A stretch of 62,057 nt of DNA from a virus. The stretch spans positions 1 to 62,057 of the IMG/VR virus record IMGVR_UViG_3300011113_000163; one strand, written 5' to 3'. The position numbers were made by a program, and so were the translations under genes. Below are positions 26,030 to 60,362 of this stretch, piece by piece (the first letter of the stretch is position 1; every line of letters starts with the position of its first letter). The notes beneath the pieces were generated by a model. That model worked only from the letters and a program-made list of their open reading frames with translations. It was not told where the DNA came from and made no database searches.

Positions 26030-27703
26030 ATGAGTTTAAGTAATTGGTTAGTTGAACAAATTGTAACGGAAGCTGCTAACATACAGCGTGTTATAGCAGT
26101 ATATCCAGGACGTTTTCAGCCATTTGGACCTCACCACGCAAAAGCGTTTGCTTGGTTACAAGGAAAGTTTGGTGCTGAAAATACATATATTGTAACTAGT
26201 GATAAAGTTAAACCTCCTAAATCTCCGTTTTCATTTGCCGATAAAAAAAATATTATTACTAATTACGGCATAAAAAATCTTGTACAAACTAAACAACCAT
26301 ATACGCCGACAGAATTGTTAAATCAATTCGATCCGGCAACGACTGCAGTTGTTTTTATGGTAGGTCAAAAGGATATGGAAGAAGATCCTAGATTTGCTAT
26401 GATGCCTAAAAAGAGCGGAGATCCGTCATATTTTCAACCATATGCTACAAATAAAAATAAACTGCAGGGATATGGTAAACATGGATATCTAATTGTAGCT
26501 CCTCATGTATCATTACGAGTTACGGGATATGGAGAAATGTCAGGAACAGAATTACGTACTGCATTAAAAAATGCAACCCCAACCACATTTAAAACAATAA
26601 TGGGTTGGTATAATCCAACTGTATATAATATGATTAAAAAAAACTTAACTGAATCTGTTAATAAAAGAATGTTAATAGAGGGAGGTGCTGGTGGCCATAT
26701 GGCACATCCATTTGATATTCCGTCTGTAAAAACCGGTAAAGACTTAGTAAAAGTATTTGTACAAGCTGCTAACTATTTAGAAAAAGGCCCGGCATCTGTT
26801 AAGATAGACGGTGTTAACGCTAGCATTAGATTGGTTAATGTTGATGGGCGTCGTCAGTTTGTAATGGATAGAGGATCTAGCAAACCGTTAGATGTTAAAG
26901 GCGTAACTAAAGATGATCTTGAAGCACGTTTTGGTGCAGGGCATGGCATGATAGTTACCGGAGGTAAAGTATTAGATATATTTAATGATGCTATACCAAA
27001 TATATCAGCTCAACTTAAAACATTAGGCTTATGGAACAATCCTAACATATTGTTCAATATTGAGTATGTAGCTGGTTCTACCAATGTATTATCTTATAAC
27101 AAAAACTTCTTAGCAATACATGGATTGTTAGAAATTGAACAAGTAACACCTAAGCGTCGTGCTACTAAAGAGATAACTTATAATAAGAAATCCATGCAAG
27201 ATTTATTGAACAATTTAGCCCCGACTGCAAATGAATACGGGTTCGAAGTTTTAGGTTCCGTACCGACTACATTGGACAAATATCCAGATTTTCAAGGAGA
27301 ACTTGCTAAAAAGTATGCCATTACTATTAATGGTAAAAAAGTTTCTAAAACATTAAATCAATGGCTATCAACTGCACAAAACGAACGTGATACAACAGTT
27401 AAATTGGCGGATGGAAAAGCAGTTGGAGCTCAATCAAAACAAATTTTATTGGCATTGTCACAAGGCGAAGATGCTGCTAAAATAGTAGCTGATCCAGACG
27501 ATGTAGAAAAAGTAGTTAACGGCTTTGTTATTTATTTGGCTACAATGGAATTAGGTAATGCAGTGTTAGAAGCATTGAGTTCGCCACTAGGACCAGTTAA
27601 AGAACATGAAGGTATTGTAATTAGAGATCCTAAAATATATGATAGTCCATTTAAAATAACTGGTCGATTCATTGTTAAAGGACTTGAATCACAGTTTAGA
27701 TAG
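26030..27703 (+). CDS. Bifunctional nucleotidylyltransferase / ligase-like enzyme with a capsid-targeting-like N terminus
   Basis: A 557-residue fusion. Residues 20-200 are a cytidylyltransferase-superfamily domain of NMN adenylyltransferase type. The first motif is G27-RFQPF-GPHHAK (a variant of GRFQPFHxGH) and the second is M-SGTELR near residue 178. Residues 240-557 have the motifs of covalent nucleotidyltransferases (ATP-dependent RNA/DNA ligases): motif I K258-IDG, III FNIE345YV, IV E527-GIVIRD, and lysines 542 and 550 at the motif V position. Motifs I and IV are 269 residues apart, more than in T4 RNA ligase 2, so an insertion is likely. The first 14 residues (MSLSNWLVEQIVTE, then A) resemble a T4 capsid-targeting peptide with a gp21-type cut site. 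Further LTE-S (E208) and LIE-G (E217) sites lie between the domains. Substrates are unknown. Confidence 0.8.
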   Translation: MSLSNWLVEQIVTEAANIQRVIAVYPGRFQPFGPHHAKAFAWLQGKFGAENTYIVTSDKVKPPKSPFSFADKKNIITNYGIKNLVQTKQPYTPTELLNQFDPATTAVVFMVGQKDMEEDPRFAMMPKKSGDPSYFQPYATNKNKLQGYGKHGYLIVAPHVSLRVTGYGEMSGTELRTALKNATPTTFKTIMGWYNPTVYNMIKKNLTESVNKRMLIEGGAGGHMAHPFDIPSVKTGKDLVKVFVQAANYLEKGPASVKIDGVNASIRLVNVDGRRQFVMDRGSSKPLDVKGVTKDDLEARFGAGHGMIVTGGKVLDIFNDAIPNISAQLKTLGLWNNPNILFNIEYVAGSTNVLSYNKNFLAIHGLLEIEQVTPKRRATKEITYNKKSMQDLLNNLAPTANEYGFEVLGSVPTTLDKYPDFQGELAKKYAITINGKKVSKTLNQWLSTAQNERDTTVKLADGKAVGAQSKQILLALSQGEDAAKIVADPDDVEKVVNGFVIYLATMELGNAVLEALSSPLGPVKEHEGIVIRDPKIYDSPFKITGRFIVKGLESQFR

Positions 27704-27712
27704 ATATTTATA
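27704..27712 (+). promoter_or_regulatory. Late element copy
   Basis: AGATATTTATAATAAAAT, beginning one base after the preceding stop codon. It ends 22 bases before the ATG of the 192-residue protein and probably drives the run through terminase. Confidence 0.6.
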
Positions 27713-27734
27713 ATAAAATTATACAGGGAATATA

Positions 27735-28313
27735 ATGGCAACAGAAAAAGAATTACGTAATGAAATCCGTAAGCATGTACAAAAAATTCTTAAAGAATAT
27801 CAACCAGGTGGATTTTTACAAAGCGTAGGCGCACAAGCACGTACGAGTCTAGGATCAGGCCGTAGCATGCTAGATAAATATTTAGGTAATGTTGATACTG
27901 AAAGATTGGCTAGATTACCTAAAATGCAAAAGGTAAATTTACTAGCTGCATTAATGAGAACATTCGGCATTTCTGCTAACGATTTAACATCATTACGTGG
28001 ACAAGTATCACGTACATTGAAAGGATATGAGACAGCAGACGCACCGGTTGAAGAAGGTAAGCTCAATGAACTTGATTTTGAAAATCCACCTACCGACGCT
28101 AGTACAGATTCTGGAGATTCAGAAGTAAGTTCGGGTTTAGCCGCAAAAGGTGAAAAACTAAAAGATACTCAGGCATATAAAATGATGGTAAAGCAATTAG
28201 AAAACAAGCCGGCATCAGATCAATCAGCGTTTGTTTTAGATTTATTATCAAACTTACCGTTGGATGATTCTGCTAAACGCATGATTAAGATGAAAATTAA
28301 ATCGTCATTATAA
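27735..28313 (+). CDS. Unknown helical protein, first gene of the pre-terminase operon
   Basis: A 192-residue protein that I do not recognise. It opens with a charged helix (ELRNEIRKHVQKILKEY) like the N termini at 21 and 28924. A Gly/Ser-rich link follows, then a helical region (residues 50-100) and an acidic, Ser/Asp-rich linker (about 115-140) after a KLNE-L site (E112) of the type cut by T4 prohead proteases. A compact helical end carries KMMVKQLENKPASDQSAF. A CAGGGAAT site precedes the start. It is probably head-associated, judging from its place upstream of terminase. Confidence 0.65.
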   Translation: MATEKELRNEIRKHVQKILKEYQPGGFLQSVGAQARTSLGSGRSMLDKYLGNVDTERLARLPKMQKVNLLAALMRTFGISANDLTSLRGQVSRTLKGYETADAPVEEGKLNELDFENPPTDASTDSGDSEVSSGLAAKGEKLKDTQAYKMMVKQLENKPASDQSAFVLDLLSNLPLDDSAKRMIKMKIKSSL

Positions 28314-28319
28314 TAGTTT

Positions 28320-28949
28320 ATGAGCAATAAGTTACAAAATTTAAAAGCTACCAAGGAATTGTTAGCTGGAACGCATAGTACTCAAACACGTAAGTCATTT
28401 GGGTATGAAAATAAATCTGATAGCAAACGTGCTATTGGAGATGTTTGGATAGAAAAAGATCCAAAGACGGGCATTGAATATAAAATAGAACAGAAAGACG
28501 GCTTTCGTACTAAAACACCTTTAAACAGTATTTTAAAACAAATTCGTCAAATATTATCTGTTCCGGAAAAATGTCCATGCTGCAATAAAAAAATGCGAGA
28601 TGAAGAAAAGGCATTAAACTTTAAAATGTATTTCAAACGTAAAAAATGTTTTGAATGTGTTATTAAAGAAGAAACTGCAATACGAATGCAAGGTAAAGAA
28701 GCGTGGGAAGAATATTCGCGTAACATAATGTTAGCCAATGCGGAAGCATGGTTGGCAGATGCTGATAAAGAAGTTGAAATATTACGTGAATCGTTAAAAG
28801 TTCAGTTTATTCAAAATGCCGAAGGTGGATTAGAAGAATGGGATCAAACCGCATTTTTAGAAAAATTTGATACAGATTATCAATCGTTAAAAAACAATAT
28901 AATAACAAATTTAAAAGGTGAATATGGCAACACCAAGGAAAGTAACTAA
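28320..28949 (+). CDS. Zinc-ribbon protein of unknown function
   Basis: A 209-residue protein. A four-cysteine zinc-binding site is visible: C-P-C-C near residue 83 and C-F-E-C about 25 residues later. A basic N-terminal region contains THSTQTRKSFGY. The C-terminal half is a long acidic helix rich in Glu and Trp (EAWLADADKEVEILRESL). I considered a small terminase or a late transcription factor, both of which act near gp17 or late promoters, but no specific motif supports either. It overlaps the next gene by 26 bases and starts six bases after the previous stop with no clear Shine-Dalgarno. Confidence 0.65.
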   Translation: MSNKLQNLKATKELLAGTHSTQTRKSFGYENKSDSKRAIGDVWIEKDPKTGIEYKIEQKDGFRTKTPLNSILKQIRQILSVPEKCPCCNKKMRDEEKALNFKMYFKRKKCFECVIKEETAIRMQGKEAWEEYSRNIMLANAEAWLADADKEVEILRESLKVQFIQNAEGGLEEWDQTAFLEKFDTDYQSLKNNIITNLKGEYGNTKESN

Positions 28950-29199
28950 GGCAGCTGAAAAGTTAGAAAAACATAGCGCTGAGATGCAAGAAGTCGCAGC
29001 AAAATGGGCAAAGGCTATTGGTGATGAAAAACCAAAATTGTTTGATAAGCTTAAAAAGATGACGGCTGAAAAACGTAAGTTAGAACAAGAACTTAATACA
29101 GCGTTGTTAGAATTAGATAAAGATACTGAATTGCAAATTGACGAAGTACGTCGTTTAATCCGTAACATAATACGTGAAGAAATTAAAAAATTAAAGTAA
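28924..29199 (+). CDS. Small coiled-coil protein
   Basis: A 91-residue, strongly charged, almost fully helical protein. Heptad-like Leu and Ile run through KLFDKLKKMTAEKRKLEQEL, and the end is a LIRNIIREEIKKLK amphipathic helix like those of other small proteins here. I chose the ATG at 28924, preceded by AAAAGGTGA. A GTG two codons earlier is possible. The start lies inside the previous gene (26-base overlap), and the stop overlaps the next start (TAATG). The function is unknown. A scaffold or adaptor role fits the composition. Confidence 0.65.
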   Translation: MATPRKVTKAAEKLEKHSAEMQEVAAKWAKAIGDEKPKLFDKLKKMTAEKRKLEQELNTALLELDKDTELQIDEVRRLIRNIIREEIKKLK

Positions 29200-30506
29200 T
29201 GGCAAAAGTTAAATTAACAAGTATAATGACAGAAGTTTTATGGGAACGTTGTTTATTAAATCAACGTTCTATACAATTAGAACAGTCATTAACTAAAGAA
29301 GAAAAGATACACGGTATTTTTAAAGAATATGTATCTTATGTAAAAAACGTATTAAATACGGAACAGCTGACTTCTTTTAAAAATTTCTTTAATCCTACGT
29401 TAACAGAAGACCTTAGTGATGATGATATGGCTGAACTAATAGCTCAAGCAGCACGTGAGTTAGCTAATAAATTACCGGATGCTAAATACTTAACTGACCC
29501 AGAAAAGATACATATCGACGCTTTAGAAAAAGGTGATGTCGAACAAGGCATAGAGATAGACGGACAAGAAAGTAGTGAGGATGTACAGACAGAGTCATAT
29601 CGTACTAAGAAACGAATACTTACTGAAGCTGGCGTATTAATGACAATACTAGCTTTACCAGCTATAGGAAAATTAATTGCGAATGTCATTGATTGGGTTA
29701 AGCGCAATCTTACATTTCCGTCTACCGAGTCAATAAAAGAAGGTGAAATTATAGATATTTTAACTTTAATACATGCATATGCAAAGTCTAACAATAAAAT
29801 ACCGACAAAACAAATTGTTGCAGATTTAGCTAAAAAAACTACGTTTGATAAATTAGACAAATTGATTTCATTCATTAATAAAAAAGCTAAAACAGATTAC
29901 AAATCGCCAAATATAAAAACTCCAATATTTGACGAATACGAACTTTCATACTCCGATCCTGAAGCTGCATTAATGAAAAATATTGACATGGCATTCGACA
30001 GAATAAATGATGCAGTTACGGCTGATGCAGAAAAGAATAAGGGTCATAAAGTACAATTTTCACCCAAAGGCTCAAAGGTACAGCCGGCTGATGATCATAT
30101 GATACATATATTAAATAGTATGACTTATTCATCACCTGTTGCTAAGTCATTAGCTAACGCTAGTCATACGTTACATGAGTGGATTTTAAAAACTGTAGGT
30201 ACAATAATGACGCCTATATTCGCTGTGCGTTACGGACTTTTCAGTAAAGCTGGATGGAAAAAGGCTTGGGATAAATCACATCAATGGGCAAATGTAATGT
30301 ATATTACTGCGATGGGGGCATATTTAGGATGGCATGGAATTAAAGCTTTATTGACAGACTCTGATATATTAGGATTTATTAAAGGTATGTTTGAGTCAGT
30401 TGAAAAATTTGTCGAAGCTTCTAAAGATATAATTAAAACCGGAGATCTATCAGTTGCCGCCGTTGAAGAATTCCTTGCAGTTTCAGGCGCTTTACAAGAA
30501 GATTAA
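29199..30506 (+). CDS. Membrane-segment protein with acidic N-terminal domain
   Basis: A 435-residue protein without a recognised family. Residues 1-140 are helical and acidic. An ILTE-AGV site (E143-A144) of the (L/I)xE type lies directly before a hydrophobic segment (about 144-167, GVLMTILALPAIGKLIANVI). A second hydrophobic helix spans about 362-385 (VMYITAMGAYLGWHGIKALL). Between them is a Lys/Asp-rich helical domain. A virion protein stored in the head and placed in the host membrane during DNA entry would explain the membrane segments, the cut site and the head-gene context. This is inference. A lysis function is an alternative because the spanin-like pair follows at once. Confidence 0.6.
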   Translation: MAKVKLTSIMTEVLWERCLLNQRSIQLEQSLTKEEKIHGIFKEYVSYVKNVLNTEQLTSFKNFFNPTLTEDLSDDDMAELIAQAARELANKLPDAKYLTDPEKIHIDALEKGDVEQGIEIDGQESSEDVQTESYRTKKRILTEAGVLMTILALPAIGKLIANVIDWVKRNLTFPSTESIKEGEIIDILTLIHAYAKSNNKIPTKQIVADLAKKTTFDKLDKLISFINKKAKTDYKSPNIKTPIFDEYELSYSDPEAALMKNIDMAFDRINDAVTADAEKNKGHKVQFSPKGSKVQPADDHMIHILNSMTYSSPVAKSLANASHTLHEWILKTVGTIMTPIFAVRYGLFSKAGWKKAWDKSHQWANVMYITAMGAYLGWHGIKALLTDSDILGFIKGMFESVEKFVEASKDIIKTGDLSVAAVEEFLAVSGALQED

Positions 30507-30507
30507 T

Positions 30508-30870
30508 ATGCAAAAGTATTTAAAATATTGGTTATATGGGTTATCTGCATTAGTTATTATTTTAATAACGGCATTGGTAATTAGTTTATCAAATAGACCG
30601 CAAGTACCTAATAATATTCGAGACTATAAACTACAACGGACAATTGATAGTTTAAATACAGTTATACAAAACAATGCAATAGAACGTAATAAACTTGGTT
30701 TAGAGATTGATTCTTTAAATAAGTCAATCGCACAAGTAGAAGTTAGTATTGCAAAAAAACAAAAAGAAATACAAACATTACGGACAGAACATGAAGAAAC
30801 AGTTAATCGTGTTAATGGCTTTACTAATAACGACATTAACAGCTATTTCACAACGAGATATAGCGAATAA
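30508..30870 (+). CDS. Inner-membrane spanin-like protein (Rz-like)
   Basis: A 120-residue protein with one N-terminal membrane anchor (residues about 6-27, LYGLSALVIILITALVISL). A periplasmic coiled coil follows (TIDSLNTVIQ and LEIDSLNKSIAQ heptads) and a short polar end (NDINSYFTTRYSE). This layout is that of Rz/i-spanin proteins, which join inner and outer membranes at the end of lysis. I start it at 30508, one base after the previous stop, where the hydrophobic anchor begins at once. The last 80 bases overlap the next gene in the +1 frame, the arrangement typical of Rz/Rz1 pairs. No holin or endolysin is visible nearby, so the lysis role is inferred from architecture. Confidence 0.6.
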   Translation: MQKYLKYWLYGLSALVIILITALVISLSNRPQVPNNIRDYKLQRTIDSLNTVIQNNAIERNKLGLEIDSLNKSIAQVEVSIAKKQKEIQTLRTEHEETVNRVNGFTNNDINSYFTTRYSE

Positions 30871-31216: not shown

Positions 31217-31217
31217 A

Positions 31218-35594: not shown

Positions 35595-35903
35595 ATGCCG
35601 GAACAAGGACCATATACATATACAGCGACTGCTGCTAGCCAATTTGAAAGATTAGGTCATCCAGGAAAATATATTACATCATATCAATATACATCCGGTC
35701 AAGTTGATTTTACCGGATCGAATTACGGGTATGGTGCAGTTATGGTAGTATCTGCGGGTGGAGCAACTGCTAGTTTATCTAACGGTGGAACATTAAATTT
35801 AGGCGATCTTAACGTAAAAGATGTATATGATTTTTCTATTAGTAAAATAACAGGCGGAACGGCAGCAACAGTTTATTTATTTAAACGTCAAGGAGTGGCA
35901 TGA
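35595..35903 (+). CDS. Small beta-rich head protein
   Basis: A 102-residue beta-rich protein with no helix-forming segment. It contains Gly/Ser/Thr/Tyr-rich strands (SGQVDFTGSNYGYGAVMVV, TASLSNGGTLNLGDL). The size and composition resemble small capsid decoration or stabilising proteins, but I cannot assign a family. AAAGGATA lies just before the start. The stop overlaps the next start as ATGA, so it is coupled to the 346-residue core protein. Confidence 0.65.
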   Translation: MPEQGPYTYTATAASQFERLGHPGKYITSYQYTSGQVDFTGSNYGYGAVMVVSAGGATASLSNGGTLNLGDLNVKDVYDFSISKITGGTAATVYLFKRQGVA

Positions 35904-36940
35904 GTTTTTTAAAAGACATAGAAAGACATTTTCGATTGTTAAACGAGGCTAAAGTAGATCGTATATCTGATAAAGAGGCGGAAGAAGATTTTGAAGATTT
36001 GGACGATAAAGACGTTGATAATGACGGCGATACCGACAAGTCAGATAAGTATTTACATAAACGTTTAGGTACTATTGCTAAAGTAGATGAAAATCATTTA
36101 GGCGTTGAAGAACCATTTTATATTGAAATAGCAGTTCGTGATGCACGTAAGGCCGTTGAATTAATAAAAGACGATCCTTTACTAGTAAAGGCATTACGTA
36201 ATAAAACTATTATGCCATATGGAAGTAACGTGTTCGCAACAGATGATCAAGAAATTATTCAGTCATTATCGGATAAATTATTAGATAGTGGCATTGAATT
36301 AATTAGTCATCAAGGATTGGATGAAATGTCAACTACTGCCGGAGTACCTGGATATCAAACTCCATATGCATTTGGTAAGGCAGATGATGATACTTTAAAA
36401 CAAGGTGGAATGATGCCAGTTAAAAAAACTAATAAAATTTTCAAACCAATATGGAATGAAAATGTGTCGGCATATAAAAAAATGATGTCTGAGATGTACG
36501 GTGTAGAATCTATCAATGAAGCTGCTAATCCACAAATGGATAAGTTAGTTACGGCATTTGTTGATAAGATAGCAGAAAGAAATGGATATCCAACGTCAGA
36601 AGCTATTATAGCAATATTTGATGCTCTTAAGCGTAAAGGATTTTTACATAAGAGTGTTGAATATAAATCACCGTCAGGATATAGTATTGAAGAAGCAGTA
36701 TCATATCGAGACTATAAAAAAGACCCAACTTCAACTCCAGCACAAAAAGTTAATGCTGGTATAATGGAAGTTAATCGCATGTTAAGCGAAATGGAAAAAA
36801 TTGTACATAACAATCTACGTTTAAAGACGGAAATGGGAGTACAATCAAATCATTTTTGGAAATCGACAAGTTCACGGTTTTCAAAAATTAATGAACGTAT
36901 TGTTAGAATCTCAAATAAATTAAAGGAATTATCACAATGA
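35900..36940 (+). CDS. Head-core protein with EF-hand-like loop and cleavage sites
   Basis: A 346-residue protein. Residues 1-16 (MSFLKDIERHFRLLNE, then A) have the layout of a T4 capsid-targeting peptide with an (L/I)xE cut site. A second matching site, SINE-AAN, lies at E207. Residues 36-52 hold an acidic DKDVDNDGDTDKSDKYL loop with Asp at 38, 40, 42 and 44, like a calcium-binding EF-hand or dockerin loop. A small alpha/beta domain follows (IEIAVRDARKAVELIKDD), and then helices. It starts in an ATGA overlap and ends in one. A prohead core or packaged internal protein is inferred. Confidence 0.65.
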   Translation: MSFLKDIERHFRLLNEAKVDRISDKEAEEDFEDLDDKDVDNDGDTDKSDKYLHKRLGTIAKVDENHLGVEEPFYIEIAVRDARKAVELIKDDPLLVKALRNKTIMPYGSNVFATDDQEIIQSLSDKLLDSGIELISHQGLDEMSTTAGVPGYQTPYAFGKADDDTLKQGGMMPVKKTNKIFKPIWNENVSAYKKMMSEMYGVESINEAANPQMDKLVTAFVDKIAERNGYPTSEAIIAIFDALKRKGFLHKSVEYKSPSGYSIEEAVSYRDYKKDPTSTPAQKVNAGIMEVNRMLSEMEKIVHNNLRLKTEMGVQSNHFWKSTSSRFSKINERIVRISNKLKELSQ

Positions 36941-37743
36941 GCTATTTTATTGATTGGCGCGACTATGTAAGACAACCGCGCATTAAAAGTTTAATTGAAA
37001 GCAAAGGTATAGAAGCTGCTCGCCAAGAATACATTCGCGAATCAAACAAAGCAATGTGGGATGACCCATTCGTTATTAACGAAAGTCTATATAGTTCTGC
37101 AGATCCAACTACAGCCGCGGCCGGTGCCGGTGGAGATAGTGCTGCTATCGTAGGGCATGTAGCTGAAGTTAGTAGATTTTCATGGGCTAGCACAGTGACA
37201 AATGACGTAACCGGATCTAATGGAGATGGTTTACATGGATATTATTTTGAAGTTGCTGCATATAACGGTAGTGTCGATTTTTCATTTAACCACGTAAATT
37301 CTACTAAGAGATTTAGATTTTATTTTGTATCATCTTCTACTACTGGATTTACTGCTACAAATACAACTGGTATTGCTGGTATAGTAACAGCTTCGTATAC
37401 TAGAACCACTGAAACTACTCCGGTAACTGGAAGCTTATTAAGTAAATTATATACAGCAATATTAGGACAAAGTGCTACTGCGGTAGTTGCAGGATTTACA
37501 AATACAATTGCTCCTAGTACATTATTTGCGCCTACAATGTCTGCAGGTAGTAGTTCATTGACGTTAGTACACGTTAATAAAGGCGGAGTTCCTAATATTT
37601 CTAGTACAGTGCCAACAGTATCAGCATCTGTAAGTGTAGTTACTAACGGATTAGATAGATATTGGGGAACATCAGCCGCGATGCCTGGACCAACGTTTGA
37701 CGGATTTGTATCGCCATATACAACATTGGCACGTAGAGGATAA
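36937..37743 (+). CDS. Head protein with helical propeptide-like N terminus
   Basis: A 268-residue protein of two unlike halves. Residues 1-49 are helical and charged and end in a VINE-SL site (E49-S50) of the gp21 cleavage type. Residues 50-268 are Ser/Thr/Gly/Ala-rich beta sequence, compatible with a small capsid-bound or decoration domain. The hinge position of the site suggests that a propeptide is removed during maturation. It starts within an ATGA overlap, and the protease gene follows at once. Confidence 0.6.
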   Translation: MSYFIDWRDYVRQPRIKSLIESKGIEAARQEYIRESNKAMWDDPFVINESLYSSADPTTAAAGAGGDSAAIVGHVAEVSRFSWASTVTNDVTGSNGDGLHGYYFEVAAYNGSVDFSFNHVNSTKRFRFYFVSSSTTGFTATNTTGIAGIVTASYTRTTETTPVTGSLLSKLYTAILGQSATAVVAGFTNTIAPSTLFAPTMSAGSSSLTLVHVNKGGVPNISSTVPTVSASVSVVTNGLDRYWGTSAAMPGPTFDGFVSPYTTLARRG

Positions 37744-37747: not shown

Positions 37748-38353
37748 ATGTCTAAACAATTAATTGTCGATTATAGTTTATTTGAAGTATCGCCTCAGGC
37801 TATTAACGAATCATTAGCTAACAATAATGGTAAATTAGTCGTTACAGGCGTTCTTCAAAGAGCAGATGCACGTAACCAAAACGGTCGTGTATATCCAATG
37901 GAAACATTAATGCGTGAAGCAAAAAAATATCAATCAACATATATTGCTGAGCGCAGGGCGTTAGGAGAATTAGACCATCCAGATAGCTCAGTGGTTAATT
38001 TAAATAACGTATCTCATAACATTTTATCTATGGGATGGAACGGCAATGATTTAGTAGGTACTGTTGAAGTATTACCGACACCGTCTGGTAACATTTTAAA
38101 AGCGTTGTTTCAATCGGGAATTAAATTAGGTATTAGTTCACGTGGTTTAGGTTCTGTAAAAGAAGTTATGCGCGAAGGAAATACTGCAATGGAAGTTCAA
38201 CCCGACTTTGAGTTGATTGCATTTGATTTTGTAAGTAATCCTTCGACCCATGGGGCATTCCTTTCACCTGTTAACGAATCTGTTAATAAAAATACATCTA
38301 ACAAATACGGAAATATCGAACGTATTATTTCCGATATAATTATGGAGTTCTAA
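37748..38353 (+). CDS. 21: Prohead maturation protease gp21
   Basis: T4 gp21-type serine protease (201 residues, T4: 212), which cuts scaffold, capsid and core proteins after (L/I)xE during head maturation. The active-site segments are GELDH77P and GIS130S131RG, matching the His and Ser of the herpesvirus-like assemblin fold. A third conserved segment is FELIAFDFVSNPSTHGAF. I start it at 37748 (ATG after AGGATAATAAA). An upstream extension lacks protease character. AINE-S (E21) and PVNE-S (E177) flank the protease core and are likely self-cleavage sites, as in T4. Confidence 0.93.
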   Translation: MSKQLIVDYSLFEVSPQAINESLANNNGKLVVTGVLQRADARNQNGRVYPMETLMREAKKYQSTYIAERRALGELDHPDSSVVNLNNVSHNILSMGWNGNDLVGTVEVLPTPSGNILKALFQSGIKLGISSRGLGSVKEVMREGNTAMEVQPDFELIAFDFVSNPSTHGAFLSPVNESVNKNTSNKYGNIERIISDIIMEF

Positions 38354-38641: not shown

Positions 38642-38968
38642 ATGTCAAACTTAAAATCAAGATATGCTCAATTGTTTGCAGGTAAACTTAAATCAAACGA
38701 TAAAAAATTAATATCGGAAGGGTTTGAAGATTTGCAAGGAGTAGCTGATCAGTTATCAGAACTTTATGATCAAGTATATGCTTTTGAGGAAGCTTTGATA
38801 AACATGTTAGATGATCTTGAAGTAGCAGAGCCAGAAAATACTATGTATAAACAATTAGGAGCACAGGCGAGTAGATATACTAAAGCAGTGATAACTAATA
38901 TGGATGGTGTTTCTAAAATAATAGACAAATTAGAAAAAATAGGATCTATGCAAAATGAAGAAATTTGA
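38642..38968 (+). CDS. Small prohead-core-like protein A
   Basis: A 108-residue acidic helical protein with a long coiled-coil segment (DLQGVADQLSELYDQVYAFE). A KLISE-GF site (E26-G27) sits near the N terminus. AAAGGATAG is a good Shine-Dalgarno. It overlaps the next gene by 14 bases. Position between gp21 and gp22, composition and the cut site fit a core protein like T4 gp67/gp68, though no sequence homology is claimed. Confidence 0.6.
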   Translation: MSNLKSRYAQLFAGKLKSNDKKLISEGFEDLQGVADQLSELYDQVYAFEEALINMLDDLEVAEPENTMYKQLGAQASRYTKAVITNMDGVSKIIDKLEKIGSMQNEEI

Positions 38969-39359
38969 ACAACAATTACTAAAAAACATACTTAATGAAA
39001 ATGTAGGTATGGATGATGAAAAGAAAGTTACTAGCGAAGAAAAGCGTAATTTCCTACGTGCCGTATCAGAATACCACAAGTTAGGTGAAATGATTTATCG
39101 TGCACAAGGCTTAAAAGAAGTAGCCGAAACATTACAGAACATTGTCACTACTGCTGAAAACTTAACAATACAAGAGTCAGAACATTGGTTTGATAATGTT
39201 ACAGTATCACGCCATATGAAGCAAATGAATGAAGCTTATAAAGTATTTGAAAAAACTGCACAGGAAATGTCAGGAATGCAACAACGTTTAGAAGCTGCAT
39301 ATGAAGACATGGGTATGGTATTAAACAAGTATTATAAAGTTAACGAAGCCTTAAAATAA
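38955..39359 (+). CDS. Small prohead-core-like protein B
   Basis: A 134-residue charged, helical protein. The N-terminal 15 residues (MKKFEQQLLKNILNE, then N) again have the targeting-peptide layout ending in LNE. The rest is helix with coiled-coil character (VFEKTAQEMSGMQQRLEAAY). It overlaps the preceding core-like gene by 14 bases and probably acts with it. No specific family is recognised. Confidence 0.6.
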   Translation: MKKFEQQLLKNILNENVGMDDEKKVTSEEKRNFLRAVSEYHKLGEMIYRAQGLKEVAETLQNIVTTAENLTIQESEHWFDNVTVSRHMKQMNEAYKVFEKTAQEMSGMQQRLEAAYEDMGMVLNKYYKVNEALK

Positions 39360-39831: not shown

Positions 39832-40731
39832 ATGAACAAATTGTTAAAAGAGGCTATTGCTGATGCTAAAGCTGTACGCGAAACTGCACTAGCAAATGCC
39901 AAAATTGCATTAGAAGAAGCTTTCACTCCAAGACTCCAAAGCATGTTATCTGCTCGCTTATCTGAAGCTGATGATGAGATGTACGACGAAGAAGAAGAAA
40001 TTGAAGCACCGGCTCCAGAAGTAACTGAAGAAGGTGAAGAAAATGACACTGACGGTACACCTGATCCAGGCCCAGCTATTGAAGAAGAAGATGAAATGGG
40101 AGAGGAAGAATTGGATTTAGAAGCGATCATTCGTGAACTTGAAGGTGACGAAGAAGTAACCGAAGAGGACCTAGATTCTTCAGACATCGGAACTGGTGAT
40201 AACAAAGTAGATGCATATTCATCTACAACAGAAGATCCAGGAGAAGGTGAAATTTCAATCGACGAAATCATTAATGCTTTACGCGAAGCAGAAGGTGAAG
40301 ACGAAGAAATGAAAGAAGAAGAAGAAAAGGAAATGAAAGAAGAAGAAGAAAAAGAAACTAACGAAGAAGCTGAAAAAGAATTAGAAGAAGCTATTCGTGT
40401 TATCAAATTCTTGAAAAACAAAATTAACGAAGTAAATCTTCTTAATGCAAAACTATTATTTTCTAACAAGTTGTTTAGAAACTATGAATTAAATGAATCA
40501 CAAAAAATGAAAGTTATTGAAAACTTTGATCGTGCAAATAATTTGCGTGAAGTTAAGTTAGTATTTAGCACATTGTGTGAATCTTTAACTGTTTCTAAAA
40601 CAGCAAAAAAACAAAACATTAAAGAAGGCTATGCTTCTAAACCAACACGTAGTACTGCTCCAAAGAAAGAAATTCTTTCTGAAGGTAATACTTTAGCTGA
40701 ACGTTGGAAGAAATTGGCTAATTTAAAGTAA
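39832..40731 (+). CDS. 22: Prohead scaffold protein gp22
   Basis: The major scaffold of the prohead (299 residues, T4: 269), which is degraded by gp21 before DNA packaging. The N terminus, MNKLLKEAIADAKAVRETAL followed by ANAKIALEE, is conserved among T4-like gp22 proteins. The middle (residues about 45-190) is extremely acidic with long Glu/Asp runs, and the C-terminal part is helical. Many (L/I)xE sites are present, for example KINE-V, ELNE-S and ILSE-G. It directly precedes the capsid gene, as in T4. Confidence 0.9.
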   Translation: MNKLLKEAIADAKAVRETALANAKIALEEAFTPRLQSMLSARLSEADDEMYDEEEEIEAPAPEVTEEGEENDTDGTPDPGPAIEEEDEMGEEELDLEAIIRELEGDEEVTEEDLDSSDIGTGDNKVDAYSSTTEDPGEGEISIDEIINALREAEGEDEEMKEEEEKEMKEEEEKETNEEAEKELEEAIRVIKFLKNKINEVNLLNAKLLFSNKLFRNYELNESQKMKVIENFDRANNLREVKLVFSTLCESLTVSKTAKKQNIKEGYASKPTRSTAPKKEILSEGNTLAERWKKLANLK

Positions 40732-40753: not shown

Positions 40754-42472
40754 ATGAATTTAAATTCTTTGTTACCTCATGATGCTCAAGCAAATCAAAA
40801 TGCAGTATCTATCCAACTTGAAAAGAAGTGGGCACGTACTGGTCTTTTGGAAGGCTTAAGCAATGAGGTTGAGCGCAAGGGCATGGCTGTTCTTTTAGAG
40901 AACCAAGCTAAGCAACTTGTAACTGAAGCTAACTCTACTGGTACTGATTCAAATGCTGAACAGTGGGCTGGTGTAGCTTTACCATTAGTACGTCGTATCT
41001 TTGCTGAAATTGCTGCAAAAGATTTCGTTAGTGTACAACCAATGAACCTACCATCGGGTCTTGTATTCTATTTGGATTTCAAATATGGTACTGCTCAAGG
41101 TATTCAACGCGGTGGTTCTGCATCTGGTAACGACTTTTTAACTGGTCAAGGACGTAACTCTCAAGCTGACTCTGTATTCGGTATCACCGATTCAGATCGT
41201 GGTGGTTCTGCTCCTAGCGAAGGTCTTTACGGTGCTGGACGTTTTGGTTATTCTGTTAACAACGTAACTGCATCATTAGGTCAATTAGGTGCTACTGCAG
41301 CAACTCAAGCACAAACTGGTTCTGTAGCAGTTGGTACTGGTGTATTCACTAGTGGTACTGGTTTAACACAAACACAGTTTGATTGGTTTACTAACTTCAA
41401 TGCAGAATTTTCTGCTTCTGTAGTTGCTAACGGTCTATCTGGATTTGTAGTATTATCTGTTCCGACAGCATCACTTTCAGGCTTTGATTCAAAAGGTATT
41501 CGCGGATTTAACGTTCAGGCTACTAACATCACTGGATTCTATCCTGAATTTACCCGTTTATCACCGACTAAGAGTCATATCCAATTCTTAGTAGACCCTG
41601 CAGTTGACTTTAATGCTCCAGTAGTAGTTTATCATAAGCAACCGCTTGATAACAGCCGTGGTGATTTTGAAGATCCAACAGCTATTGGAAACAATACAAA
41701 CTCAAGCACAAACTTAGCTATTCCAGAAATTAACTTAGAACTTCGTTCTGAAGCAATCGTTGCTAAGACACGTAAGTTAAAAGCTATTTGGTCTCCTGAG
41801 TTTGCTCAAGACTTAAATGCTTACCACTCAATTGATGCTGAAGCAGAATTGACTAGCATGTTGTCTGAGTATATTTCACAAGAAATTGATCTTGAGATTT
41901 TAGATATGTTGATCCAAAACGCTCAAACAACTGAGTATTGGTCAGCTCAAATCGGTTATGTATATGATTCTGCTACTAGCGCATTTGTAAATGCCGCTAC
42001 TGCAGGTCAAGCATATAACCAAGGTACTTGGTTCCAAACTTTAGGAACTAAAATCCAAAAAGTATCTAACAAAATTCATCAGTTAACTATGCGCGGTGGA
42101 GCGAACTTCTTAGTATGTTCTCCAACTGTAGCAACTATCCTTGAGTCTATCCCAGGATATGCTGCTGATACTGACGGTAACAAGATGAACTTTGCAATGG
42201 GTGTACAAAAAGTAGGTGCTATTAACAACCGTTATCAAGTATATAAGAATCCTTATATGACTGAAAACACTATCCTTTTAGGATACCGTGGATCTCAGTT
42301 CCTTGAAACTGGTGCTGTTTATGCTCCATATGTTCCATTGATGATGACTCCACTTGTTTATGACCCAACTAACTTCACTCCACGTAAGGGTGTAATGACT
42401 CGTTACGCTAAGAAGATGGTTCGTCCTGAATTCTATGGTAAGATCTGGGTTGGTGGATTAAATCAACTTTAA
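40754..42472 (+). CDS. 23: Major capsid protein gp23
   Basis: HK97-fold major capsid protein (572 residues, T4: 521). The most diagnostic block is LVRRIFAEIAAKDFVSVQPM then NLPSGLVFYLDFKYG (residues about 76-115), the same arrangement as in T4 and cyanophage gp23. The central part (150-300) is variable. The C-terminal half has conserved LELRSEAIVAKTRKLKAIW and FTPRKGVMTRYAKKMVRP segments. Processing by gp21 probably occurs after LVTE58, before ANSTGTDSNAEQW, close to the T4 cut after residue 65. Codon use here is smoother than in the neighbours (more GGT, CGT, AAC), as expected for a very highly expressed gene. No second vertex gene (gp24) is seen. Confidence 0.96.
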   Translation: MNLNSLLPHDAQANQNAVSIQLEKKWARTGLLEGLSNEVERKGMAVLLENQAKQLVTEANSTGTDSNAEQWAGVALPLVRRIFAEIAAKDFVSVQPMNLPSGLVFYLDFKYGTAQGIQRGGSASGNDFLTGQGRNSQADSVFGITDSDRGGSAPSEGLYGAGRFGYSVNNVTASLGQLGATAATQAQTGSVAVGTGVFTSGTGLTQTQFDWFTNFNAEFSASVVANGLSGFVVLSVPTASLSGFDSKGIRGFNVQATNITGFYPEFTRLSPTKSHIQFLVDPAVDFNAPVVVYHKQPLDNSRGDFEDPTAIGNNTNSSTNLAIPEINLELRSEAIVAKTRKLKAIWSPEFAQDLNAYHSIDAEAELTSMLSEYISQEIDLEILDMLIQNAQTTEYWSAQIGYVYDSATSAFVNAATAGQAYNQGTWFQTLGTKIQKVSNKIHQLTMRGGANFLVCSPTVATILESIPGYAADTDGNKMNFAMGVQKVGAINNRYQVYKNPYMTENTILLGYRGSQFLETGAVYAPYVPLMMTPLVYDPTNFTPRKGVMTRYAKKMVRPEFYGKIWVGGLNQL

Positions 42473-55544: not shown

Positions 55545-55553
55545 ATATTTATA
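55545..55553 (+). promoter_or_regulatory. Late element copy
   Basis: CGATATTTATATGAAACA, ending 34 bases before the sheath ATG, the longest leader in the set. Confidence 0.6.
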
Positions 55554-55574
55554 TGAAACATGTTAATAACAATT

Positions 55575-55580
55575 TAGGAG
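55575..55580 (+). promoter_or_regulatory. Shine-Dalgarno of gp18
   Basis: TAGGAG seven bases before the sheath ATG, a clear site in front of an abundant virion protein. Confidence 0.65.
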
Positions 55581-55587
55581 CAAACTA

Positions 55588-57369: not shown

Positions 57370-57385
57370 GATTTTAGCAAAGTAG

Positions 57386-57394
57386 ATATTTATA
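57386..57394 (+). promoter_or_regulatory. Late element copy
   Basis: AGATATTTATAAGAAATA, ending 20 bases before the tail-tube ATG. Confidence 0.6.
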
Positions 57395-57414
57395 AGAAAT
57401 AATAGGATAAGAAA

Positions 57415-57903
57415 ATGGCAGAATTATTAGATCCAAGCGAAATATTTTATACCGCGTATGAGCCGAAAATGGCAAACCGCTTCATTATGTACATTGAAGG
57501 AATTCCTGCATACCTTATTAAGGCAGCAAGTCGTCCAAGTATTGACCAAGGTGAAGTGATTCTAGATCATATCAACGTAGAACGCAAGTTAAAAGGTAAA
57601 AGCCGTTGGCAAGATGTTACCGTAACATTATATGACCCAGTTGTTCCGTCAGGCGCACAAGCGGTAATGGAATGGGTACGTTTGCACCACGAGTCTGTAA
57701 CCGGACGTGATGGTTATAGTGACTTTTATAAAAAGAACATTACTTTCAATACTTTAGGACCGGTGGGTGATAAGGTTGAAGAATGGACTTTGATAGGAGC
57801 ATTTATTTCATCTGCAACGTTTGGTGATATGGATTGGGCGACTGAAGATCCAGTTAACATCGAGCTTACGCTGAAGTATGACTATGCCATTTTACAATTT
57901 TAA
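57415..57903 (+). CDS. 19: Tail tube protein gp19
   Basis: Tail tube monomer of 162 residues (T4: 163). Conserved features are an N-terminal MANRFIMYIEGIPAYLIKAA segment, the RKLKGKSRWQDVTVTLYDP strand and the terminal NIELTLKYDYAILQF strand, which together form the hexameric ring barrel. A TAGGATAAG site lies before the start. It is followed by a strong hairpin that probably ends its message. Confidence 0.95.
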   Translation: MAELLDPSEIFYTAYEPKMANRFIMYIEGIPAYLIKAASRPSIDQGEVILDHINVERKLKGKSRWQDVTVTLYDPVVPSGAQAVMEWVRLHHESVTGRDGYSDFYKKNITFNTLGPVGDKVEEWTLIGAFISSATFGDMDWATEDPVNIELTLKYDYAILQF

Positions 57904-57931
57904 TGGCAATCATATTTGGAAGTTAGAATTT

Positions 57932-57975
57932 AAATCCTTATATTTATTAGAAATAATAAGTATAAGGATTTTTTT
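57932..57975 (+). terminator. 18-bp GAAA-loop hairpin abutting the HNH start codon
   Basis: The left arm AAATCCTTATATTTATTA (57932-57949), loop GAAA and right arm TAATAAGTATAAGGATTT (57954-57971) pair over 18 positions with one wobble and are followed by Ts. It can terminate transcription from the tube gene. Because the HNH ATG starts at 57976, it also takes up the whole ribosome-binding region and should block translation. Its left arm contains a late element. Confidence 0.85.
57940..57948 (+). promoter_or_regulatory. Late element copy inside a hairpin
   Basis: TTATATTTATTAGAAATA lies within the left arm and loop of the hairpin. A transcript begun just after it would lack the left arm and so would not fold the block on the HNH start codon. 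Confidence 0.5.
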
Positions 57976-58668
57976 ATGACCGAATTTACATGTACTGCCT
58001 GTAATCGCAAATTCAATAGTTACAAGAGTCTACAGACCCATAATTCCAGGACACATAAAATAAAAGGAATACAGACCTTTATTAATGTATATCACGGCGG
58101 TATTCATCCAAAATGTAAATGCGGCTGTGATCAAGAACTAAACTATCAGAACGGTAAGTTTGGTGAATACATTCGAGGACATGTAGCCAGAGTTAACGGA
58201 GGCTTTTATACGGAAGAAGGTATCAATAAGTCAACCGAAACTCGTAGGCAGCAGTATAAAGACGGTACACGTATGCAATGGAATGCCGGTAAACAAATGA
58301 CAGATAATTGGCTAGCTACTTATAAAATAGGATGGAAAAAACGTGGCGTAGAATGGAAACAATCGTTACGTGAAACTAGAGCCAAGCAACTCGGATACGA
58401 ATCCTGGCGGCATTGGTATGATACTCTACCAGACCGTAAACGCTATTACTACGATGTATGGAGATTGACAGAAGCCAATGCACACCTCATACCAGGATAT
58501 GATCCAGAACTACGAGGAATTGCCGGTACTGAAGGAGCCTATCAAATTGATCATGTTATTCCAATATCTAAAGGATATACAGAAAGCATGCCTCCGGACA
58601 TTATTGCTTCGCCAGAAAATTTAAGATTTATTTCGTGGCAAGAAAATTTACAAAAGGGAAATCGCTGA
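57976..58668 (+). CDS. Free-standing HNH homing-type endonuclease with C2H2 finger
   Basis: A 230-residue nuclease that probably cuts related genomes lacking the gene and spreads by repair. The N terminus is a C2H2 finger (C6-x2-C9-x12-H22-x4-H27) for DNA binding. A Cys-rich KCKCGCDQEL segment follows, then basic NUMOD-like helices. The HNH core has QID192H193VIPISKGY and the terminal ENLRFISWQENLQKGNR. It interrupts the tail operon between the tube and baseplate genes, a usual site for such elements. The start codon directly follows the 18-bp hairpin. Confidence 0.88.
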   Translation: MTEFTCTACNRKFNSYKSLQTHNSRTHKIKGIQTFINVYHGGIHPKCKCGCDQELNYQNGKFGEYIRGHVARVNGGFYTEEGINKSTETRRQQYKDGTRMQWNAGKQMTDNWLATYKIGWKKRGVEWKQSLRETRAKQLGYESWRHWYDTLPDRKRYYYDVWRLTEANAHLIPGYDPELRGIAGTEGAYQIDHVIPISKGYTESMPPDIIASPENLRFISWQENLQKGNR

Positions 58669-58673
58669 CCCAT

Positions 58674-58682
58674 ATATTTATA
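58674..58682 (+). promoter_or_regulatory. Late element copy, very close to a start codon
   Basis: ATATATTTATATAAAATG. Four bases separate it from the ATG at 58687, so this would be a leaderless message if it is a promoter. Confidence 0.5.
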
Positions 58683-58686
58683 TAAA

Positions 58687-58950
58687 ATGAAAAAGAACGT
58701 TGATCCTATAGAACATTACGGTACTAAAATTAATGAAGCTATATCTCTTGCTGCTTTATTAGGTACTGGTGTAGCCGCAATATTATACGGTAAAAAACTT
58801 TACGATGCTATAAAGGCAGTACGTAAAAAGTTCGACAATGATCCAGAGATTGAAGCCGCGGCAGATGACATGCTTAAACAAGCAGAACGCCTTAAAGATA
58901 CGGCAGAACGAAAAGTTTCAGAACGTGATAAACGTCATACAAAACGATAA
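58687..58950 (+). CDS. Small protein with one hydrophobic helix and targeting-like N terminus
   Basis: An 87-residue protein. Residues 1-17 end in KINE, then A (a gp21-type site). A hydrophobic helix follows at about 18-36 (ISLAALLGTGVAAILYG), then a charged helix rich in Lys, Asp and Arg. The same plan (short head ending in NE, hydrophobic segment, charged helix) recurs in the gene at 60108, so the two may be distant paralogues. After cleavage, a small membrane-active helical peptide would remain. An internal head protein ejected with DNA is one possibility. Confidence 0.6.
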   Translation: MKKNVDPIEHYGTKINEAISLAALLGTGVAAILYGKKLYDAIKAVRKKFDNDPEIEAAADDMLKQAERLKDTAERKVSERDKRHTKR

Positions 58951-58955
58951 ATACC

Positions 58956-58964
58956 ATATTTATT
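58956..58964 (+). promoter_or_regulatory. Late element copy
   Basis: CCATATTTATTAAAAATA, ending 28 bases before the ATG of the gp26-type gene. Confidence 0.6.
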
Positions 58965-58992
58965 AAAAATAAAGTTATATAAAAAGGAAAAT

Positions 58993-59850
58993 ATGCCAAC
59001 AGTTAACGACGAGTACAAAGGCGGGCCATTATCAGATGCACAATTAAAGGCAATGGCAACTGCAAATTATCAAACCCAAAATCCATCAACTCCTACATCA
59101 GGATATACAGGTCCTACGGAAATCATTGAATTACCTAGCAAAGGAGTATTATATCCAGAAGATCATCCATTAAAGTCTGGTAAGATTGAGATGAAGTATA
59201 TGACTGCAAAGGAAGAAGATATTCTTACCAATCAAAGTTATATCAAGCAAGGAGTAGTGCTAGATAAATTGTTTCAAGCACTTATTATAACGCCTGTTGA
59301 TTACAATGATTTATTGTTAGGCGATAAAAATGCTATCATGGTTGCAGCTCGTGTATTAGGATACGGTTCTAAATACGAAACAGATGTTATTTCTCCGGCT
59401 GGAACAAAACAACGCGTTGAAATAGATTTAACACAATTAAAAGATAAAGAAATTGATTGGTCATTGTTAGTACCTGGTAAAAATGAATTTGAATTTGAAT
59501 TACCAGCGAGCAAACATAAAATTACTTTCAAGTTATTGACACAAGCCGATAACAAAAAGATTGATGCAGAAATTACAGGACTAGCAAAAGTTAAAAAAGA
59601 AGCTCCATTAACTACACGATTGAAATATTTGATTACATCAGTTGATGGTAATACAGAAACAGCATTTATACGTAAGTTTGTTGATAATGAATTATTGGCA
59701 ATTGATAGTCGTGCAATTCGTAATTACATGTCTAGCATTACTCCAGATATTGATTTAAATGTTGATTTGGTCGATGAGGTGACCGGAGAAAGCTTTCGTA
59801 GTTCGTTTACCTTCGGATTGGACTTTTTTTGGCCTGACGCCCAAGTATAA
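58993..59850 (+). CDS. 26: Baseplate hub/assembly protein, T4 gp26-type
   Basis: A 285-residue member of the T4 baseplate family (gp26, 208 residues in T4), required for hub assembly, with an EIIELPSKGVLYPEDHPLKS segment near residue 42, KIEMKYMTAKEEDILTNQSY near 64 and FTFGLDFFWPD at the end. The family motif order LPS-kG-lYp then MtakEEdIL is typical. AAAAAGGAAAAT precedes the start. The end has a run of seven Ts where reading can shift into the downstream small frame. In T4 the next gene is 51, another assembly factor. Confidence 0.85.
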   Translation: MPTVNDEYKGGPLSDAQLKAMATANYQTQNPSTPTSGYTGPTEIIELPSKGVLYPEDHPLKSGKIEMKYMTAKEEDILTNQSYIKQGVVLDKLFQALIITPVDYNDLLLGDKNAIMVAARVLGYGSKYETDVISPAGTKQRVEIDLTQLKDKEIDWSLLVPGKNEFEFELPASKHKITFKLLTQADNKKIDAEITGLAKVKKEAPLTTRLKYLITSVDGNTETAFIRKFVDNELLAIDSRAIRNYMSSITPDIDLNVDLVDEVTGESFRSSFTFGLDFFWPDAQV

Positions 59851-59854
59851 AGTA
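59824..59854 (+). other. Possible programmed frameshift site
   Basis: Seven Ts at 59824-59830 lie near the end of the gp26-type gene. A +1 (or -2) slip on TTT-TTT continues as FFGLTPKYKVM into the small frame at 59855 without a stop. The codons between the slip and that ATG read as plausible protein sequence. Confidence 0.4.
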
Positions 59855-60049
59855 ATGTTGCAAGAGCAACTATTCGATTTAGTATTTTTTGGTAAGGGCG
59901 GGTTTACATATTCAGATGTATGCAATATGCCAGTTTTTATACGGCATTTCTTTATAAGAAGATTGCAAAAGCATTTTGACGATGAAAAGAAAGCACATGA
60001 TAAAGCCATGAGACAATCCAAAGGAAAGGTTAAACCTGGTAAAAGATAA
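59855..60049 (+). CDS. Small assembly-chaperone-like protein, possibly also a frameshift product
   Basis: A 64-residue reading frame beginning MLQEQLFDLVFFGKGGFTYS, then DVCNMPVFIRHFFIRRLQKH. Proteins of this pattern (aromatic strand, GGF-T/S, then MP and an Arg-rich helix) follow gp26-type genes in T4-like phages and take the place of tail-assembly partners. It can start at its own ATG, four bases after the gp26-type stop, or be joined to that protein by a slip on the T-run. Weak ribosome-binding sequence (AAGTATAAAGTA) is compatible with frameshift or coupling. It ends before a terminator. Confidence 0.65.
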   Translation: MLQEQLFDLVFFGKGGFTYSDVCNMPVFIRHFFIRRLQKHFDDEKKAHDKAMRQSKGKVKPGKR

Positions 60050-60074
60050 AAAGAGCTCCATCCGGAGCTTTTTT
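60050..60074 (+). terminator. Rho-independent terminator
   Basis: A 6-bp stem AGCTCC / GGAGCT with loop ATCC, extended by a G-T and A-T pairs, followed by six Ts. It ends the gp26-type message. Confidence 0.85.
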
Positions 60075-60083
60075 ACTGATCTG

Positions 60084-60092
60084 ATATTTATA
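60084..60092 (+). promoter_or_regulatory. Late element copy
   Basis: TGATATTTATATAAAAGG, just after the terminator and 15 bases before the ATG of the 84-residue protein. It starts the tape-measure message. Confidence 0.65.
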
Positions 60093-60107
60093 TAAAAGGT
60101 ATTAAGT

Positions 60108-60362
60108 ATGTCTAGCAATAAATTTGAACAAAAAGCTTTAAAACAAATCAATCTTAATGAAGGATTGATTAGTACAATAGCTGGATTTTTTTTAGGATCT
60201 AAATTTCGATCATCAATGCGAGAGTTAGAAAAGATGAAAAAAGATGATCCTACTTTAAAAGCTGATATAGCTAGCTTTTATCAAAATTATAAATCATTAC
60301 GAAACCAATTAGATACAATCTGCGATAAACATCCGAATTTACCGAATTGTAAAGATAGATAA
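60108..60362 (+). CDS. Small protein with hydrophobic segment and targeting-like N terminus
   Basis: An 84-residue protein. Residues 1-18 (FEQKALKQINLNE, then G) end in an LNE cut-type site. A hydrophobic, Gly/Phe-rich segment follows (ISTIAGFFLGSK), then a charged helical part and a Cys-containing end (TICDKHPNLPNC). It resembles the small protein at 58687 in plan. The stop overlaps the tape-measure start (TAATG). It is a likely internal virion protein, though no family is recognised. Confidence 0.6.
   Translation: MSSNKFEQKALKQINLNEGLISTIAGFFLGSKFRSSMRELEKMKKDDPTLKADIASFYQNYKSLRNQLDTICDKHPNLPNCKDR

Follow-up and report, generated by a model that had tools for sequence, protein, structure and literature searches.

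A predicted nucleotidyltransferase-ligase precursor with candidate prohead protease sites in a T4-type phage

Results

The sequence analysed here is the IMG/VR virus record IMGVR_UViG_3300011113_000163, whose whole length of 62,057 bases we call the window. It is a fragment of a T4-type phage with a late gene block encoding terminase, portal, gp21, a gp22-like protein, gp23, sheath and tube; apart from gp21 and gp23, these names were assigned by position and by relatives. The closest gp23 relatives among sequenced phages are those of Microcystis phage Mel-JY01 (58.9%) and Flavobacterium phage immuto (56.6%). Our focus is the gene that starts at position 26030 (proteins are named here by the start of their gene, and all window features lie on the + strand). 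It belongs to the late head block and lies close to terminase, an arrangement that Mel-JY01 shares. A gp21-type prohead protease (Peptidase_S77; 37748..38353, with an ATG at 37748) is encoded in the window and was recognised by a match to PF03420 (92 bits, 37823-38281). A first-pass annotation of this DNA had proposed that the 26030 protein is a bifunctional nucleotidylyltransferase-ligase and that it and several other proteins carry short N-terminal peptides ending in (L/I/V)xE, are packed into the prohead and are trimmed there by gp21. All eight N-terminal glutamate sites that it listed are present in the sequence where it placed them.

Domain structure of the 26030 protein

An AlphaFold model of the 26030 protein, built with 22 relatives, has two domains and a predicted local distance difference test score (pLDDT) of 82. 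The score falls below 50 at residues 1-15, at residues 209-223 and in the last four residues, the first two of these being the predicted cut regions. The first domain (residues 19-207; 26084..26650) matches NaMN/NMN adenylyltransferases (NadD and NadM) and PPAT, all tied at a Z of about 11, and has an SGTxxR motif. The catalytic HxGH motif is replaced by GxHH in 98 of 107 relatives' frames, with HxGH in one and neither motif found in eight; because of this change the domain is filed as NMNAT-like and not as NMNAT. In the window the swapped motif reads GRFQPFGPHH (26108-26137), a conserved swap and not decay.

The second domain (residues 218-557; 26681..27700) is RNA-ligase-like, with KIDG at residues 258-261 followed by EGIV and KITG. 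Across 39 ligase domains the KxDG, motif III E, EGxV and KxT motifs are present in order, and K41, D43, G44, E128, E310-G311, V313, K325 and T327 are invariant. Modelled alone, the domain reaches a pLDDT of 89, and the best-matching chains are T4 Rnl1 and other RNA ligases (for T4 RNA ligase 1, Z 9.2, root-mean-square deviation 3.7, 176 residues aligned). Foldseek matches were weak (best E 6.5e-3), and sequence searches of Pfam, PHROGs and the PDB did not name the ligase domain. A Pfam scan of the 26030 protein gave no match at all, so no metallopeptidase domain is recognised by Pfam. Judged by model and motifs, the 26030 protein is an NMNAT-like domain joined to an RNA-ligase-like domain.

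The domain junction

The linker between the two domains (26651..26680) contains two candidate protease sites, E208 (NLTE↓S) and E217 (MLIE↓GG; arrows mark predicted cuts), which had been suggested to let the protease separate the domains. A ligase profile search of viral contigs found at least 457 relatives, 80 of which were kept. The 120 frames with either domain comprise 103 with the order nucleotidyltransferase-ligase, two with the order ligase-nucleotidyltransferase, 13 with the ligase alone (many of them cut by contig ends) and two with the nucleotidyltransferase alone. Eight of the 118 ligase frames were set aside, four because they lack the GG motif and four because GG falls too close to the beginning of the frame or the ligase leads. 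In 103 of the 110 usable frames, (L/I/V)xE stands directly before the invariant GG of the ligase. Among non-redundant, unrelated linkers the junction site is found in 39 of 43, against a background of 45 of 989 other linker positions, while the length and content of the linker vary freely among relatives. At the junction P3 and P1 are kept while P2 may be T, L, V, I, K, M or another residue, a pattern that fits a protease site and not a folded element. At loci L033 and L036 the ligase comes first, starts M-GG and has no preceding E, so that cutting and plain initiation yield the same N terminus. The E208 site is kept solely in a close group of relatives; of the two suggested separating sites, it is E217 that is conserved, exactly at the start of the ligase.

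Several of the frames have further features. An HNH-endonuclease-like insert was seen by eye in frame, exactly between the linker and GG, at L234:3-2771 and L258:1-2178, and apparent remnants of such inserts, ending (R/K)QLL(T/V)C before GG, are found at L217:2843-5209 and L206:37-2316 and in L207 and L211. The insert looks like mobile DNA that targets the conserved GGxxGHM coding sequence. By eye, L206, L217 and L234 also have a hydrophobic stretch of the type GLGAIAAIPIPGTMLLIPVIVQLAKKF within the interdomain linker. A 915 amino acid protein at L199:5587-8331 (LR756508) carries a ParB_N-like domain together with the nucleotidyltransferase-ligase pair. When the L033 polyprotein's tail was compared with the separate genes of the window, no match was found.

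The leader peptide and its repeat

Residues 1-14 of the 26030 protein (MSLSNWLVEQIVTE↓A, with VTE↓A at E14; 26030..26071) form a candidate targeting peptide, which lies in the low-confidence N-terminal region of the model and is kept in the close group as MNLGxWLxxxI(L/T)TE. An N-terminal extension of about 13-25 residues is present in 50 of the 55 listed relatives and nearly always ends in hydrophobic-x-E; the exceptions include L033, which starts with the ligase, and L199, which starts with the ParB-like domain. In five loci (L255, L260, L267, L268 and L273) a near-identical leader is repeated just before the ligase, for example ENLGQWLAKQILTE↓GG. A search for this repeated-leader pattern across 8,429 frames gave hits in the 26030 family and two chance cases alone. 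Of 51 proteins scored, 22 have at the junction the peptide that most resembles their own N-terminal leader out of all windows ending in the motif, where 4.9 are expected.

Ligases that stand alone can have leaders of their own. That of LR756500, a large phage, starts MKFLKSYEEFLNENLILE↓GG, with neighbouring proteins that start MEFVKTYLEFINE and MEYVKLFEEFVND, and the stand-alone ligase of L376 has a leader-like start ending ILE↓GG. L376 (ONIZ01000001.1, 410 kb) is filed as a Firmicutes metagenome-assembled genome and may be a huge phage misfiled as a bacterium.

Cyanophage relatives and virion proteomics

The cyanophage counterpart of the NMNAT-like domain is T4-GC190, whose gene lies directly downstream of the ligase-like T4-GC71 gene in Syn33 and P-HM1. 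The two parts are joined in one protein in S-PM2, and many cyanophage records annotate the pair as two neighbouring genes. NMNAT-like proteins in closely related viral loci all start MK(K/S)FSAFL(T/S/N/I)E↓A (80/80), which can be compared with the T4 leader MKTYQEFIAE↓A. S-SZBM1_140 starts MRFRQFIIE↓A, the S-SM2 copy starts MKSFFQFLSE↓A and the P-HM1 copy is without a leader.

Such proteins have been reported from cyanophage virions, data that the first-pass annotation had not taken in, nor the two-gene state of the pair. According to the portions of the reports that were available, T4-GC190 was detected by mass spectrometry in S-SM1 virions (Sullivan et al. 2010; PMC3037559), the cytidylyltransferase ORF154 by three peptides in S-CREM2 virions (PMC10665884), S-SZBM1_140 by two peptides in S-SZBM1 virions (PMC9146016) and the NMNAT ORF91 in S-SCSM1 virions (PMC9602691). 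Those same portions make no mention of a leader or of cutting of these proteins. Within the open-licence full texts searched, as far as their available portions go, we found no link between NMNAT-like virion proteins and a targeting leader, and no two-enzyme, head-packed, protease-split combination was returned. ORF153 of S-CREM2 is absent from the virion table of the available report (PMC10665884). T4-GC534 (L291:3278-4585, L287:17014-17289) is labelled 'possible cytitidyltransferase', but inspection by eye shows no motif of a nucleotidyltransferase in it; the name seems to be that of its neighbour.

Conservation of N-terminal sites in the head module

N termini were compared among frames called in 160 loci that surround gp21 relatives and 58993 relatives, together with the loci of the 26030 relatives. 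The 39 families with at least three non-redundant members were each scored for an N-terminal site against shuffles of their own N termini. Six families reached P<0.01, and all six are in the first-pass list: gp21 (20/20), 60108 (10/10), 38642 (7/7), 58687 (3/3), 35900 (5/8) and 36937 (3/3). In the same test no member of the portal, terminase, sheath and tube families had an N-terminal site. A form of the test that allowed any residue after E was dropped as not specific, because it also raises plainly conserved families such as 34757 (15/15). The 27735 protein, tried as a further sharer of the leader, was likewise dropped, its site not being conserved. As sequence evidence, this conservation is decisive for the candidate sites of gp21, 35900, 38642, 58687 and 60108.

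The motif was also counted against chance and against early genes. In T4, used as a positive control, it recovers the sites of IPI, IPII, IPIII, gp23 and gp24. With the glutamate at residues 8-30, [LIV]xE↓[AGSN] occurs in 9 of 53 window proteins against a shuffle mean of 3.6 (P=0.0065), and [LI]xE↓[AGS] in 7 of 53 against 2.2 expected (P=0.0035). This shuffle test is generous, because the 8-30 range was picked after the site list, which had itself been compiled by looking for such sites. By itself the count gives a modest excess and is insufficient to carry the claim. The early proteins of Mel-JY01 and immuto are at the shuffle level and the head modules of both phages are enriched. In Mel-JY01 the motif occurs in 8 of 167 early-region proteins (10.1 expected by shuffling) and in 5 of 21 head-module proteins (Fisher P=0.008); for immuto, in a comparison that leaves out 50,001-110,410, the figures are 6 of 91 early genes (7.7 expected) and 9 of 14 in the head module (P=2.5e-6). 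Under the strictest form of the motif the Mel-JY01 difference is not significant (head module 2/21 vs early 5/167, P=0.18).

Other proteins with candidate sites

The gp21 protease has its own N-terminal site, INE↓S at E21. The major capsid protein gp23 (40754..42472) has, as the first-pass annotation had it, LVTE↓A (at E58, 40925-40927) where T4 gp23 is cut. The T4 site is FLTE↓A at E65, and the form of the site is kept in relatives. The 35900 protein (35900..36940) starts with the leader MSFLKDIERHFRLLNE↓A (LNE↓A at E16), a site that is kept while its flanks change. The 36937 protein (36937..37743) has both LIE↓S at E21, on which its conservation score rests, and INE↓S at E49; relatives have INE↓S or INE↓N at E49 in 8 of 10 cases and LVE↓H, with the site lost, in the other two. 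For the 38642 protein (38642..38968; ISE↓G at E26) and for two small proteins in which a hydrophobic stretch follows the site, 58687 (58687..58950; KINE↓A at E17) and 60108 (60108..60362; LNE↓G at E18), the sites are kept in all relatives scored. Among relatives of 38642 and 60108 the spacing and flanks vary, and hydrophobic-x-E followed by G (once S) is constant. The site of the 38955 protein (38955..39359; ILNE↓N at E15) is weak, with a small next residue in 5 of 17 relatives (P=0.08) and frequently K instead. The probable gp22 scaffold (39832..40731), which adjoins gp23 on its 5' side and has ten motif sites, gave no family match and no excess of N-terminal sites (3/8). The claim of a set of proteins with gp21-type N-terminal sites stands for gp21, 35900, 38642, 58687 and 60108, with no excess in early genes; 38955 and the E49 site of 36937 lend it weak support. 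Some of the listed proteins may belong to the core or scaffold and not be injected.

The 435 amino acid 29199 protein (29199..30506) is absent from the first-pass list. Its internal site at E143 (29625-29627) reads RILTE↓AG and has a hydrophobic stretch after it. All five relatives covering this region have L(T/V)E↓(A/G) and the hydrophobic stretch; a phage search with the 29199 protein gave no matches.

A hydrophobic start is expected after the predicted cut at 29625-29690, 58738-58800 and 60162-60200 and in Mel-JY01 at L037:26740-27465. These new N termini resemble what has been reported for SPN3US gp47, and the proteins could be membrane-acting ejected proteins. A stretch of the type DxDNDGDxDxSDKYLxxR, resembling a calcium-binding loop, recurs in unrelated proteins of the window phage (about 35990-36060) and of cyanophages (L291:3278-4585, L292:4172-5581, L287:17264-17989). 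Between gp21 and gp23 of Mel-JY01, L037:22429-23595 encodes a 388 amino acid protein that by eye is ADP-ribosyltransferase-like (YRA, STT, ESE); it has no Pfam match and could be an Alt-like packaged enzyme.

Discussion

We propose that the 26030 protein is a precursor in which a leader peptide is followed by an NMNAT-like nucleotidyltransferase and, beyond a removable linker, by an RNA-ligase-like domain. The leader, with its second copy before the ligase in some relatives, would draw the precursor into the prohead core, where a gp21-type protease would cut after the glutamate of (L/I/V)xE. Two separate enzymes would result within the head and, on the precedent of T4, would accompany the DNA into the cell and act immediately. 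At a guess, they would repair cut RNA and maintain the supply of NAD or related cofactors. Those other head-module proteins whose N-terminal sites are conserved would be core or ejected proteins, processed likewise. Taken as a whole, we consider this explanation probable. It is likely that the leader directs the 26030 protein into the head and that the protein is cut at E217↓GG, the surest of the sites; cutting at E14 and E208 is possible. The basis in our data is site conservation, the restriction of sites to head genes, the domain folds and the repeated leader. From the work of others come the NMNAT-like proteins of cyanophage virions, and we infer cutting in the window phage. The idea that the listed proteins are packed into the prohead and trimmed gains from the conserved gp21-type sites, from E217 at the ligase start, from the repeated leader and from the T4-like leaders and virion finds in cyanophage relatives, and loses ground at 38955, E49 of 36937, E14 and E208.

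A number of observations weigh against this explanation. The loosest form of the motif occurs in 9 of 53 window proteins against 5.4 by shuffling (P=0.087), and the excess seen for glutamates 8-30 is gone when the range is widened to 8-60 (10/53 vs 7.2, P=0.16). The L013, L017 and L018 groups lack an N-terminal leader, and a strict site, with A, G, S or N next, is found in 2 of 12 members of the 26030 family scored at the N terminus (7 of 12 if any next residue is allowed, mostly D). Seven of the 110 usable frames (L206, L207, L211, L217, L218, L234 and L258) read (R/K)QLL(T/V)C↓GG, with C in place of E; in these, separation has probably been lost, so that it cannot be needed in every case. 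In two of the virion proteomics papers the authors warn that they could not exclude CsCl carry-over. For S-SZBM1 the bare motif failed to predict virion detection (5/30 of those detected vs 19/191 of the others, P=0.21), and the ligase-like S-SZBM1_141 is absent from the main text and the 30-row virion table of the report (PMC9146016). S-SZBM1_141 has no site near its N terminus, so its absence fits the leader idea, yet it means that the ligase was not seen in the S-SZBM1 virion.

One alternative is an ordinary late cytoplasmic enzyme whose N-terminal helix, like the LxE ahead of GG, serves folding or dimer formation and is unrelated to gp21. In its favour, the residue after the E14 position is D, E or Q in most relatives (A in the window), which leaves cutting at E14 uncertain; the bare motif is common, as the shuffle expectation of 3.6 in 53 shows; and the virion finds amount to three peptides in S-CREM2 and two in S-SZBM1. 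We nevertheless find a cytoplasmic role unlikely, since the junction keeps P3 and P1 and not P2 over unrelated linkers, has no E in proteins that begin with the ligase, falls in a disordered region of the model and in some relatives carries a repeat of the leader. The gene also lies within the late head block near terminase, as it does in Mel-JY01, and NMNAT-like relatives were detected in virions on several separate occasions, according to the reports cited above.

Alternatively, the protein could be packaged and injected uncut, or with the leader alone removed, and its domains could act as one enzyme. Fusions in both orders suggest a benefit from keeping the activities together, and seven relatives manage without the junction E. 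A one-piece enzyme is quite unlikely, however, given a site kept in 39 of 43 unrelated linkers that otherwise vary freely, and given that the pair is annotated as two neighbouring genes in many cyanophage records. It is very unlikely that the listed proteins serve the prohead core or its assembly, are degraded or removed by the protease and never reach the cell. In favour of this reading, 35900, 38642 and 38955 are small and their genes fall in the interval from portal to gp23; they recall T4 genes 67 and 68, which encode proteins with numerous sites. The reading does not suit a protein that has two folded enzyme domains and conserved catalytic motifs, and T4 Alt and the internal proteins are reported to be ejected (PMC9026906).

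If the precursor is packed, split and delivered as proposed, a head-packed RNA ligase and NAD-type enzyme would oppose, from the first minute, defences that cleave tRNA or deplete NAD, because packaged enzymes act before the host can respond. The leaders would also explain why cyanophage virions repeatedly yield NMNAT-like proteins, finds that those who made them could not tell from carry-over. A cut site conserved at the border of two domains would put the T4-type head protease to a new use. In a more tentative generalisation, which we regard as close to an even call but short of one, T4-type and some huge phages would process polyproteins with their head-maturation protease: one precursor, in which the NMNAT-like enzyme and the RNA ligase both have targeting leaders of their own, would be packed into the prohead, split there and delivered with the DNA as an RNA-repair and cofactor kit before phage gene expression.

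Among the nearest known systems are the T4 internal proteins IPI-IPIII and Alt, which have capsid targeting sequences cut by gp21; Alt is a packaged enzyme (PMC9026906). A gp21-type protease is common to T4 and the window phage, whose proteins described here have candidate short N-terminal leaders ending (L/I)xE and are predicted to be carried in the head, and the leaders of cyanophages and huge phages resemble that of T4. The 26030 protein differs from them in its leader (xLGxWLxxxIxxE), in being a two-enzyme precursor with a candidate site at the domain junction, and in having enzymes unrelated to Alt. It shares with the cyanophage T4-GC190 virion proteins the HIGH-type nucleotidyltransferase superfamily, a ligase-like partner (T4-GC71 there) and a candidate leader (ending FL(T/S)E↓A there). 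The cyanophage pair is usually two genes and, in the S-SZBM1 report, the leaderless ligase went undetected. The ejection proteins of SPN3US and phiKZ are packaged and are processed after an xxE motif by the prohead protease; their propeptides are mostly longer than 100 residues, and the portions of that literature available describe no ligase-nucleotidyltransferase precursor. There is also a likeness to phage polyvalent proteins (Iyer et al. 2017; PMC5512222), which the available text presents as multi-domain, probably packaged and thought to be split by a peptidase, and in LR756508 a ParB-like domain is fused to the nucleotidyltransferase-ligase pair. In that text a built-in metallopeptidase is proposed as the cutter and RNA ligases are not among the domains described, whereas here the phage's own head protease would cut. 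Targeting leaders in T4, processing by gp21 and packaged enzymes are thus already known; what would be new is a two-enzyme precursor with a protease site at the border between its domains.

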